Shown piece after piece: positions 59,257-64,000 of a stretch of DNA of 64,000 bases. How positions within the stretch are numbered: the stretch's first letter is position 1; each line of letters starts with the position of its first letter. The notes beneath the pieces were generated by a model. It was not told the origin of the DNA. It did not search any database and worked only from the letters and a program-made list of their open reading frames with translations. This stretch comes from Spirochaetia bacterium (GTDB lineage Bacteria > Spirochaetota > Spirochaetia > Sphaerochaetales > Sphaerochaetaceae). The position numbers and the translations under genes are program-made. The stretch is taken from assembly GCA_022482625.1 (NCBI GenBank), contig JAKVOU010000001.1, positions 248,001 to 312,000 of the forward strand, read 5' to 3'.

Positions 59257-60960
59257 TTATGAAAGGGATTCCATATCTTTTCCACTTTCTTGTGAGGTAA
59301 TTGTCTTTGCATGCTGCTTTTTCTTGTATGTGGCGGAGGCTGCCTTGGTGAATTGGAATACAAGGCTTATGCAGGTAATGATGAAGATGATCCTGGCAAA
59401 CCAATCATCATGTTTGCTGTAGGTGGTGAGTCCAAAACTTTTCTGGCTGTAGATAGGAACTTCATATACATGGTAGTTGCAGGTAAATGGCTTGATAGGG
59501 TCAATGACCTGGCCCCACGGCGTAATCATGCAGGTAATGCCGCTATTGGTACTCCGTACGACAGCTCTTCTGTTTTCAATGGCCCTGAATGTGCCCAGTC
59601 TCATGTGTTGCATTTCTGCGCTTACGGCATTCGACCAGCTGTCATTTGACAAGTTGAGCAACAAGTCTGATCCCTGACGTACGAATTTTGCACTGATGCT
59701 GCCGAAAATATCCTCAAAACAGATCGAAGTGGAGAAATCAAGCCCATCATAGGAGAATATCTTGGATTTTTTCCCAGGCAACCACCAATGGAAATCATGG
59801 TTCTTCAGCCATTGGTAGAAACGTGGCATCTGCTTTTGATAGGGAAAATACTCAGTGAACGGCACCAGATGCTGTTTCCTGTAGGTGTCATAGATCTTGC
59901 CGTCTGCAAAGAGTATGACTGAGTTGTAGTCAATCCTGTTCCAGTTGCCGTTCTTGTCCCAAGTCCCCATCGTCGGATCCTTGATTACCCCTTCAGGATT
60001 ACCGGTAACCAGCGGACAAGGAAGTGACTTGCCGAAGTTTATGAAATCCTGTACCAGCTTGCTTGTCTTAGGATCGGTAGGATGCGCAGTATGCCAGGCT
60101 ACCGAAGGAACAAAGGCTGTTTCAGACCACATTACCATATCAGGATTTTCTGCAAGGGATTCTTCTGTAAGCTGTTTCATGGTAAGGAAGTTCTTCAGAT
60201 ATTGGTCGTAACCGCCTTTCCATGTGTCACTGTTGTGCTGGACCGTTGCTATCTTGATGACTTTATTCGGCTTTTGCATCTGCCAATATGAAATAGTATG
60301 GAATCCGAAGACAAGCGTGGAAATAAACAGTGCAAGGTAGACGTAGATACCACCTTCGGTTTCTTCAAGATGTGAGGAAAGTGATATGCCGTATGTATGT
60401 CTTCTGGCGAGGAAATCAGCTGCATAGGACTGGGGGATGAACATGAGTAGGGAAATGGCCCAGCTGCCGAATACTGAGGAAATCTGAATCAGCGGCAACC
60501 ATGTGGCAAAAGCAGAACTGAGATTGCCGTAGGGATACCCCAGGAAACCCAATTGACCGACATAGATGTAGGCTATATATGAACATGACTGGAGCAGTGC
60601 CCTGCCTTTCTTCGGAAGGTTTTCGGCAGCTTTCATCAAAGGAAAATAGAGCATCAGCTCGAATCCTTTGAGTATAGGGGCTATGAATATTGCCATCGGA
60701 TGGAAAGTCGACAGCCAGTAATTGAATATGGCCAGATATGAAAACCCGAACAGGAAACCGAGCAAGGGAGCATATCCCCATCTGGTCCTGTCTACGGCAT
60801 AGAGCATGGGTATCAGGGCAAAGGTTGCAAGGAAAGGGAAACCGTTGTCATTGAGAAATGATGGAAAGGCGAGTGCATACAGAAAAGCTGACAGGAGGGT
60901 AAGCAGTATCTCAAGGGGAAGATCTCCAAACCTTCTCCGCCTTTTTGGTGGTAAATCCAT
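59257..60960 (-). CDS. lnt: Apolipoprotein N-acyltransferase
   Basis: A 567-residue inner-membrane enzyme that adds the third acyl chain to the N-terminal cysteine of lipoproteins. Residues ~15-225 contain about seven transmembrane helices. The nitrilase-like periplasmic domain holds the catalytic triad E280 (MWSETAF), K362 (YRKQHLVPFTEYFP) and C414 (STSICFEDIFG). A last helix lies near residue 530. The family is usually ~510 residues; this one has a longer loop and tail. AAGGAG precedes the start. It fits the several lipoproteins seen in this window, and heads the lnt-apeB cluster. Confidence 0.93.
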   Translation of the reverse strand: MDLPPKRRRRFGDLPLEILLTLLSAFLYALAFPSFLNDNGFPFLATFALIPMLYAVDRTRWGYAPLLGFLFGFSYLAIFNYWLSTFHPMAIFIAPILKGFELMLYFPLMKAAENLPKKGRALLQSCSYIAYIYVGQLGFLGYPYGNLSSAFATWLPLIQISSVFGSWAISLLMFIPQSYAADFLARRHTYGISLSSHLEETEGGIYVYLALFISTLVFGFHTISYWQMQKPNKVIKIATVQHNSDTWKGGYDQYLKNFLTMKQLTEESLAENPDMVMWSETAFVPSVAWHTAHPTDPKTSKLVQDFINFGKSLPCPLVTGNPEGVIKDPTMGTWDKNGNWNRIDYNSVILFADGKIYDTYRKQHLVPFTEYFPYQKQMPRFYQWLKNHDFHWWLPGKKSKIFSYDGLDFSTSICFEDIFGSISAKFVRQGSDLLLNLSNDSWSNAVSAEMQHMRLGTFRAIENRRAVVRSTNSGITCMITPWGQVIDPIKPFTCNYHVYEVPIYSQKSFGLTTYSKHDDWFARIIFIITCISLVFQFTKAASATYKKKQHAKTITSQESGKDMESLS

Positions 60961-61070: not shown

Positions 61071-62341
61071 ATGTCTGTCGTAAACCACTATGGGGATGTC
61101 ATCAAGCATTATGCTGACCAAAAAGCCGAATGTTGCCAGGGGAATGGTGGATGTCGGTCTATCCCTTGAGCATTACCGGTCTGCAAAGCATGCGGACAAG
61201 AGGATACCTGCCAGTTACCGCTATCTGAACACCATGGCACTAGGAATGGTACAGAAGGGGATGAGAGAACCTGAGATGACTTGCTGGAACAATCTCTTCG
61301 CTCCTGTCGAACTTATGGAAAGCTTTGATATCAACTGCCTGTCCATGGAAGCCCTTTCATCTTTTTACAGTGGCTTTACCATTGAAGACAGGCTTATTGA
61401 TGAATCAGATGCAATCGGCATAGCAAAGACACTATGTACCTACCATAGGAACTTTATCGGTGCCAACAGTCTTGGTCTGCTTCGTAAACCGACGGCCTGT
61501 GTGACGACCAGCAGTATCTGTGACGGCAATACGAACACATTCAGGTTTGTCTGTTCGGAACGCCGGATACCATTTTTCCTTGTTGATGTGCCGCATCAGC
61601 TTTTGTGATGAAAGCATTGCCTATGTAGAGCAGCAATTGAAGGAACTTGTGGTTTTTCTTGAAGACAATTATCACCTTAAGTACGATGAAAGGGAACTTG
61701 CCAGGATCCTTGCCCGTGAGAATGAAAGTCATAGGCTCTATGAAAAGTATCTTTCCCTTATCGGTACCCGCAAGCTTGCCTCTACGTTGACACTGCAGAT
61801 GTTCATCTTGTTTGCAAGCCATCTTTCGATCGGCAGTGAAGAGTCCTTGAAGTTCTATCAGATGCTGGTTGATGATGTAACAGCTGCTCCGCCCTTCGAC
61901 GGCAAGAAGATATTGTGGGTCCATGTACTGCCATTCTTTGAAGAAAGTCTCAAGCAGGTATTCAATCTCAGTGACGACAACCAGATCCAATGTGTGGAAA
62001 TGAACAGTGATGGCAACGGATATCTCAATCCCCAGCATCCCTTGCATAGCCTTGCTTCCAAACTGGTTTCCAATGTGTACAACAGGGGGTATGAGGCTAA
62101 GGCCCAACTGTGTAGCGAACTTGCAAAAAAATGCAATTGTGACGGTGTCATCCATTTTGCCCATTGGGGCTGCAAGCAGACCAGCGGGGGAGTCAACATA
62201 CTGAAGAAAAGGTTGCAGGAAGATGGGATTCCTCTTCTGTTGCTGGACGGCGATGCTGTGGACAGGCGTAACGACGGAGCTGGTCAGATACGGACAAGGG
62301 TAGAGGCTTTCATGGAGATGTTGTCAGGAGAAAAGAAATGA
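61071..62341 (+). CDS. 2-hydroxyacyl-CoA dehydratase (HgdB/DCCP-like) subunit, two +1 frameshifts
   Basis: The likely start is ATG 61071 with GGAGG six bases upstream (MSVVNHYGDVIKHYADQK). An extra A in the run at 61120-61124 and an extra T in the run at 61601-61604 break the frame. Removing both gives one ~422-residue protein: RGMVDVGLSLEHYRSAKH, MTCWNNLFAPVELMESFDIN, VTTSSICDGNT, then HWGCKQTSGGVNILKKRL near the end. The family carries Fe-S clusters held by the Cys residues in TCWNN, SSICDGN and HWGCKQ. It performs low-potential reductions such as dehydration of 2-hydroxyacyl-CoA; YjiM-type double-cubane proteins are an equally likely match. It overlaps the next gene (ATGA). Confidence 0.78.
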
Positions 62342-64000
62342 TTGCCTATGTGTGCAAGTATACTCCGATTGAAGTCTTCCAGGCTATGGGAGAGGAAACG
62401 ATACTGCTTGAAGGTGCTGCAGGACAGTGTACTGAGGCTGAAAGCTGCATGCATCCGAATCTCTGCAGCTACGCAAAGGCGGCTTATGAGACTTTGGTCA
62501 GGCATCCTGAGTATGAGGGAATAATCCTCACCTCCTGCTGTGACAGCATCAACAGGCTTTACGACAACCTATGCCGACGTTTTCCTAAGCGTTTTATCTA
62601 TTTGCTTGATTTGCCACGGAAAGTCAATGACAGTTCCGTCATGTTGTACCGTAGGCAGATAGCGTTGATGGCTGAAGCATGGGAAGCCTACAAGGGAGAA
62701 ATATTTGATCCTGTGGCGCTACAGGAGTATATTGGCAACGGCATCAGTCCGATAGCAGAAGATGCCGTTGCTTCTGAATCAAAGGATAGACTTCGTATCG
62801 GCATCATGGGTGCCAGATGTTCCAAGAACCTGTATAGGCTCCTGAAGGCTGATAGGATTGTCTTTGACTTGACCTGTGCAGGTATCGGGCGGTCAATCAG
62901 AAAATTGGCTTGTGACGATATCCTTACAGATTATGCACGTTCGCTCCTGGAGCAGCTACCTTGCATGAGAATGTGTGATGTTACCCGGCGGCTGGATCTG
63001 GTTCGGAGTCTGGAAGGCAAGGTGGATGGCATTATCTACCATGTGATCAAATTCTGTGATCTCTATCCCTATGAGTATTCCTTCATAAAGAAAGAGATCA
63101 GCGTACCTGTCAACTATATCGAGACTGACGGTACGGAAAGCAGTTCCGGCCAATTGCAGACAAGGATTGAAGCTTTTGAAGAAGAACTGCAGGCAAGACG
63201 CAATGAGGGGGAGGTTCCTGTGAGATTGATTGCAAGGTACAAGCATCACCACGATGCTGATAGGGATGAAAAGATACGGAGCAAGGGATATTTCCTTGGT
63301 ATCGACAGTGGTTCGACTTCGACCAATGCCGTTGTCATAGACAATGGATGCAGGTTGCTGGCAAGCTGCGTTATTCCGACAGGAGCACAGGTTGCAGACA
63401 GTGCCGCACAGGCCAAGGCAATGGTCCTGGGAAAAGCCGGCATCGGGACCAAGGACGTGTGCAGGATAGTCTCGACCGGATATGGCCGCAATGGCATAGT
63501 CGGCAGTGACCAGGACATTACTGAAATCTCATGCCATGCAAAAGGTGTGCATTTCCTTTTTCCTGACGTCCGGACTATCCTGGACATTGGGGGCCAGGAC
63601 AGCAAGGCGATAAGGATCAATGAAGCCGGCAGTGTCGTTGACTTTGTCATGAACGATAAGTGTGCCGCCGGCACAGGCCGCTTCCTTGAGATGATCAGCA
63701 GCACGCTGGATATCGGGCTTGAAGAGATGGGCCCATTGTCCCTTACGTCAAAAAAGGATGTTGAAATCAGCAGTATGTGTTCAGTGTTTGCTGAAAGTGA
63801 AGTCATTTCCCTTGTTGCGGAGAACAAGGAATTGGCCGATATCATCCATGGTGTGCACAAGACGATTGCAAAAAAGGGCTTGGCACTGATGAAGCGTGTA
63901 GGACTTGAATCTGAGTACTGTATGAGCGGCGGAGTTGCCCGTAATGTAGGAGTAGTGGAAGTGCTTTCCCAACTTCTGGACGCACCTGTGAAAGTCTATG
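62338..64000 (+). CDS. HgdB-like domain fused to activator ATPase, runs off the window
   Basis: An uninterrupted frame of at least 554 codons beginning at ATG 62338 and open at the window end. Residues ~1-290 are a second HgdB/DCCP-like unit with cysteines in GQCTEAESCMHPNLCSYAK, LTSCCDSIN and GARCSKN. From ~residue 320 comes a BadF/HgdC-type activase: GIDSGSTSTNAVVID, STGYGRN, LDIGGQDSKAI, CAAGTGRFLE and SSMCSVFAESEVISLV, MSGGVARN. The two cysteines in the CAAGTG and SSMCSVF blocks correspond to those that hold the dimer-bridging [4Fe-4S] cluster in HgdC. The ATPase uses ATP to drive electron transfer into the dehydratase-like partner. Fusion of component and activator is unusual for classical systems. 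Confidence 0.82.
   Translation, partial: MIAYVCKYTPIEVFQAMGEETILLEGAAGQCTEAESCMHPNLCSYAKAAYETLVRHPEYEGIILTSCCDSINRLYDNLCRRFPKRFIYLLDLPRKVNDSSVMLYRRQIALMAEAWEAYKGEIFDPVALQEYIGNGISPIAEDAVASESKDRLRIGIMGARCSKNLYRLLKADRIVFDLTCAGIGRSIRKLACDDILTDYARSLLEQLPCMRMCDVTRRLDLVRSLEGKVDGIIYHVIKFCDLYPYEYSFIKKEISVPVNYIETDGTESSSGQLQTRIEAFEEELQARRNEGEVPVRLIARYKHHHDADRDEKIRSKGYFLGIDSGSTSTNAVVIDNGCRLLASCVIPTGAQVADSAAQAKAMVLGKAGIGTKDVCRIVSTGYGRNGIVGSDQDITEISCHAKGVHFLFPDVRTILDIGGQDSKAIRINEAGSVVDFVMNDKCAAGTGRFLEMISSTLDIGLEEMGPLSLTSKKDVEISSMCSVFAESEVISLVAENKELADIIHGVHKTIAKKGLALMKRVGLESEYCMSGGVARNVGVVEVLSQLLDAPVKVY

Follow-up and report, generated by a model that had tools for sequence, protein, structure and literature searches.

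A two-gene module coupling an HgdB-like subunit to an activase-fused, predicted double-cubane subunit in a Spirochaetia bacterium

Layout of the locus

We analyzed a window of 64,000 nucleotides from a Spirochaetia bacterium (positions 248001-312000 on a contig of 3.41 Mb), whose right end holds a pair of forward-strand genes. An initial annotation had described them as two adjacent HgdB-like units, and PF06050 indeed matches both halves of gene 1 as well as gene 2; these are the genome's only PF06050 genes. Gene 1 spans 61090-62341 and gene 2 spans 62338-64083, with the ATG of gene 2 overlapping the gene 1 stop by 4 nt. Gene 2 runs past the window, and reading it to its end, as the annotation had advised, yielded a protein of 581 aa with no internal stops. 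Features beyond position 64000 are given at window-equivalent positions.

59257-60960, reverse strand: lnt, apolipoprotein N-acyltransferase, the divergent left neighbor and left insertion edge relative to same-genus genomes
61090-61608, forward strand: component 1, first part (HgdB-like, catalytic type; PF06050, 2.4e-10)
61435-61437 and 61519-61521, forward strand: component 1 cysteine codons in the first part (invariant, 74/74)
61600-62341, forward strand: component 1, second part, in the next reading frame (PF06050, 4.1e-45)
62171-62173, forward strand: third cluster cysteine codon of component 1, in the second part
62338-63186, forward strand: component 2, HgdB/double-cubane domain, residues 1-283 (PF06050, 3.2e-39)
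62353, 62464, 62539, 62875, 62962 and 63055, forward strand: starts of the six invariant cysteine codons of component 2, aligned to BzdN/DCCP cysteines
63187-63288, forward strand: flexible linker of component 2, 34 residues (relatives have 16-66; modeled with low confidence)
63289-64000, continuing to 64083, forward strand: component 2 activase domain, residues 318-570 (PF01869, TIGR00241, 1hux fold match)
63661 and 63778, forward strand: codon starts of the activase bridging cysteines C442 and C481
64203-64276 (L004:7203-7276): tRNA-Met, 120 bp past the fusion gene

The genome contains a second lnt-like gene (G000:C1:2311292-2312878) with 50% identity to the lnt adjoining the pair, and two lnt-like genes are likewise present in genomes G001, G002, G003 and G007.

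Gene 1 was correctly called HgdB-like, but its frame change near 61595-61608 had been overlooked: the first 172 codons lie in one frame and the remainder in the next. All 73 aligned relatives of component 1 are intact, with a single frame running across this point. The codon-usage trace computed for the window also switches frame mid-gene at ~61604, and most of the trace's other switches appear to bound gene-length segments. We considered a programmed frameshift and rejected it, as there is no conserved frame change in the relatives. The frame change could be either an isolated mutation or an isolated sequencing error; unless it is the latter, this genome's copy of component 1 may be inactive.

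Two unlike HgdB-type subunits and a tethered activase

Component 1 contains three invariant cysteines, C116, C144 and C361 (74/74), which align with Cys95, Cys128 and Cys380 of BzdO, the middle one with an ambiguity of one residue; the three BzdO residues are that subunit's cluster ligands (PMC11971306). Its Glu87 is also invariant (74/74) and aligns with BzdO Glu65, and Tyr118 (73 of 74) aligns with BzdO Tyr97; in BzdO, the glutamate touches the cluster water and the tyrosine binds the thioester oxygen (PMC11971306). The top matches of the component 1 profile are catalytic subunits (BzdO, 4.7e-28; HadB, 2.8e-24). When an intact relative was modeled (pLDDT 94.3), the structure superimposed best on HadB (Z 39.9, rmsd 2.6 over 373 residues) and then on BzdO (Z 36.3, rmsd 3.0 over 375 residues), with partner-type chains scoring below both (Z 30-32). 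Judged by alignment and model, component 1 is a full-length, three-cysteine, catalytic-type subunit resembling BzdO and HadB.

The HgdB domain of component 2 has a different set of cysteines. C6, C43, C68, C180, C209 and C240 are invariant in 25 diverse members, the most distant included, and the alignment of cluster ligands suggested in the initial annotation places them at all six [8Fe-9S] ligand positions of BzdN (Cys36/73/100/263/293/327; PMC11971306). Six cysteines of DCCP fall at these positions too, whereas the C180 position is occupied by a non-cysteine residue in MbdN and HadC (alanine in HadC). The six-cysteine pattern of double-cubane subunits of the BzdN/DCCP type is thus present in component 2, and supports its prediction as an [8Fe-9S] double-cubane subunit, though conserved cysteines alone are no proof of the cluster. 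Throughout the family, the domain is missing ~50 residues of the intermediate helical domain found in BzdN and DCCP. Fold comparison gave Z scores of 24.0 for HadC, 23.8 for BzdN and 23.0 for DCCP, which do not separate these three. Among solved chains, DCCP scores best against the domain (9e-32), and in the comparison with the double-cubane family, also proposed earlier, the six cysteines are common to both, while the DCCP equivalog NF040772 scores 80-89 bits on component 2, compared to a cut-off of 350.

According to their aligned cysteines, the pair's two HgdB-type units are therefore not equivalent, one having three and the other six. The description of both units as DCCP-like holds for the second, with cysteine at six of six ligand positions, and fails for the first. 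Because component 1 is of the three-cysteine catalytic type, the pair resembles BzdNO rather than a DCCP homodimer.

The activase domain of component 2 was identified by PF01869 (residues 320-569, 9.6e-56) and TIGR00241 (1.7e-69); these matches, like those of PF06050, are above cut-off. Both of the bridging-cluster cysteines noted earlier, C442 (NDKCAAGTGRF) and C481 (SSMCSVFAES), are invariant in 84 of 84 sequences and align to the solved activator 4EHT. The domain's fold matches HgdC (1hux) over 258 residues (Z 35.7, rmsd 1.4). HgdB-type subunits combined with an ASKHA activase having two bridging cysteines characterize the BCR I/HAD superfamily with an archerase activator, and both are found here. 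The domains, the ligand residues, the catalytic glutamate and tyrosine, the fusion and the adjacency of the two genes are all features of the sequence itself. We found no description of an HgdB-activase fusion in the open-licence literature.

A 1003-aa protein with two activase domains is encoded ~16.5 kb downstream of the pair (G000:C1:328564-330261); it belongs to a common large type that occurs in most relatives in the family and is distinct from the fusion.

Distribution, neighborhood and origin

The fusion is not confined to this genome, and its family is common in Bacillota. Among the matches listed, a genome scan returned at least 80 loci with the fusion, almost all in Bacillota and mostly in Lachnospiraceae; 572 scan candidates encode a relative of the query, many of which may match one domain only. 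The pair occurs in 27 of 200 genomes from the family of Roseburia faecis (about one in seven). Of 84 loci, 81 have component 1 adjoining the fusion gene, and two of the other three begin at a contig end; the two genes overlap by a few nucleotides in most loci. The most divergent fusion (G045; L009:745-3843) has the reversed order, fusion then component 1, and keeps all six cysteines.

The pair had been proposed to be a self-contained module, and it does form a two-gene unit: no third partner gene is conserved in 84 loci, any other gene cluster lies near the pair in at most 16 of 88 loci, and any immediate neighbor recurs in four at most. Across the loci compared, no electron-donor or substrate gene is consistently nearby, and no aromatic-degradation genes are conserved next to the pair. 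The absence of CoA-transferase and acyl-CoA genes remarked on earlier extends beyond the window. A downstream fermentation cluster, which the initial annotation had named as evidence against its proposal, was sought, and neither CoA-transferase nor fermentation genes were recognized in the 12 kb that follow the pair. Across 84 loci, the pair has no conserved CoA-transferase or acyl-CoA gene at its side, and family III CoA-transferases (PF02515) are absent from this genome. No riboswitch was found upstream of the pair in six loci. Two candidate links, to mlp methyltransferase clusters (PMC10418091) and to selenium genes (PMC5322559), were rejected, as no conserved neighbor matching either was seen.

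In four loci of the clade nearest to the window's protein, a DUF362 protein with ferredoxin-type 4Fe-4S motifs adjoins the pair in divergent orientation. The coordinates of this protein beside the pair in Bacillota relatives are as follows.

L035:5517-6638
L037:7446-8561
L039:7276-8415
L046:7254-8429

In C. carboxidivorans, a DUF362 protein lies ~2 kb from the pair. As a weak lead, the DUF362 protein is a candidate electron donor.

Full-length fusions are rare in the window's own phylum, Spirochaetota (2 of 296 sampled genomes); a separate search found further ones in G007 and G026, plus the divergent one in G045. The window's protein falls inside a Bacillota clade (support 96/95), apart from the G019 and G007 copies, on a long branch that leaves its exact place in the tree unsure. 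A tRNA gene borders the point of insertion: the pair lies between lnt and tRNA-Met, and in two genomes of the same genus (G001 and G002) tRNA-Met directly follows lnt and the module is absent. This rarity, the nesting among Bacillota and the two empty sites make lateral gain of the pair between lnt and tRNA-Met likely, as the simplest reading; its loss in the same-genus genomes is the alternative. There are no convincing attachment-site repeats around the insertion.

A proposed mechanism and its rivals

We propose, with a probability of roughly 0.6, that the pair is an ATP-driven, BzdNO-like radical reductase with two clusters, belonging to the BCR I/HAD superfamily and having its single activase tethered to a shortened form of the double-cubane subunit. 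The proposal draws on the aligned residues and on analogy to BzdNO(PQ), the class Ib benzoyl-CoA reductase (PDB 8S02), which likewise combines a six-cysteine double-cubane subunit, a three-cysteine catalytic subunit whose Glu65 and Tyr97 are conserved in component 1, and a BadF/HgdC-type activase. The two systems differ in that the pair has one type of activase, fused to the double-cubane subunit, rather than a P/Q pair, and in that this subunit is shorter than BzdN. The pair also falls short of the cut-offs for bzd-type benzoyl-CoA reductases (TIGR03190, TIGR03191 and TIGR03192: 31/454, 49/449 and 231/380 bits, the first two being the BzdN and BzdO scores, respectively) and reaches none of the NCBIfam equivalog cut-offs tested (DCCP, Bzd, HadB and HadC). 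Speaking against the proposal are the ~50 residues missing from the component 2 domain, the fold scores that do not set HadC, BzdN and DCCP apart, and the absence of a consistently adjacent electron-donor or substrate gene.

If the pair works like BzdNO, as it probably does, a ferredoxin-like donor would pass an electron to the activase [4Fe-4S] cluster, around which the activase domains of two component 2 chains would dimerize at C442 and C481. ATP hydrolysis would then allow the activase to inject the electron into the predicted [8Fe-9S] cluster of the tethered domain, held by its six cysteines. The double cubane would store electrons and deliver them to a putative [4Fe-4S]-OH2 cluster on the three cysteines of component 1. 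At that cluster, the tyrosine of the C-x-Y motif would hold the substrate, which is probably a carbonyl or thioester compound, and reduction would proceed by transfer of one electron or a hydrogen atom, Glu87 acting as the proton relay. BzdNO is the source for the assumed cluster types, electron path and oligomer, and for expecting reduction instead of dehydration.

The closest competitor, though an unlikely one, is a 2-hydroxyacyl-CoA dehydratase with a fused activator, in which the injected electron is recycled and water is eliminated in a net redox-neutral reaction, as in (R)-2-hydroxyisocaproyl-CoA dehydratase, HadBC plus activator (PDB 3O3M, 4EHT). HadB is the closest fold to component 1, slightly nearer than BzdO, which counts against the two-cluster reductase; the glutamate and three cysteines are kept; and the activase is HgdC-like, with 42% identity to the HadBC activator in a structural alignment. 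However, a HadBC-type beta subunit has three cluster cysteines only, whereas component 2 has six that are invariant, including the C180 cysteine that HadC lacks, and the HadB and HadC equivalog scores are far from their cut-offs (67/750 and 40/700). The HadBC activator is encoded by a separate gene, unlike the pair's fusion. Known HadBC systems are encoded together with a CoA-transferase, and the pair has no such neighbor or fermentation genes.

Somewhat less probable is a small-molecule reductase of the DCCP kind, with the double cubane itself serving as active site and component 1 as an accessory subunit. DCCP and its reductase DCCP-R (PDB 6ENO, 7YYL; NF040772) share with the pair the six cysteines and an ATPase partner from the same superfamily, and the best solved-chain match of component 2, along with its 89 bits to NF040772, fits this reading. 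Yet that score is far below the cut-off, and DCCPs form homodimers whose reductase is a separate protein (PMC11971306), while the pair has the fusion and a heteromeric three-cysteine partner with a conserved catalytic glutamate, nearly always encoded alongside. We consider it quite improbable that the pair reductively re-activates some other enzyme or a cofactor (a corrinoid or a different metalloenzyme, for instance) instead of serving catabolism. A widespread yet solitary two-gene unit without pathway genes would suit such a role, but component 1 keeps a full substrate-type subunit, with its intermediate helical domain and active-site Glu and Tyr, and no client gene is adjacent.

Returning to the two-cluster radical reductase, the fusion gives each double-cubane subunit one activase, and archerases act as dimers, so two fused chains would be needed, suggesting one activase dimer for two catalytic heterodimers. 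More tentatively, we suggest that the pair represents an uncharacterized class of single-activase double-cubane reductases, widespread in gut Bacillota apart from any conserved adjacent aromatic-degradation genes, that acts on a substrate either non-aromatic or new in some other way, with its tethered activase dimer serving two heterodimers.

Before BzdN, DCCP was the only protein reported to have a double-cubane [8Fe-9S] cluster (PMC11971306). If the six-cysteine reading is true, the pair would add a third double-cubane lineage, present in roughly one-seventh of the genomes sampled from a major gut family. The pair is a compact two-gene system, and is attractive for biochemistry because the activator and the electron store are on one chain. 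Identifying its substrate would uncover a low-potential reductive step of gut metabolism.
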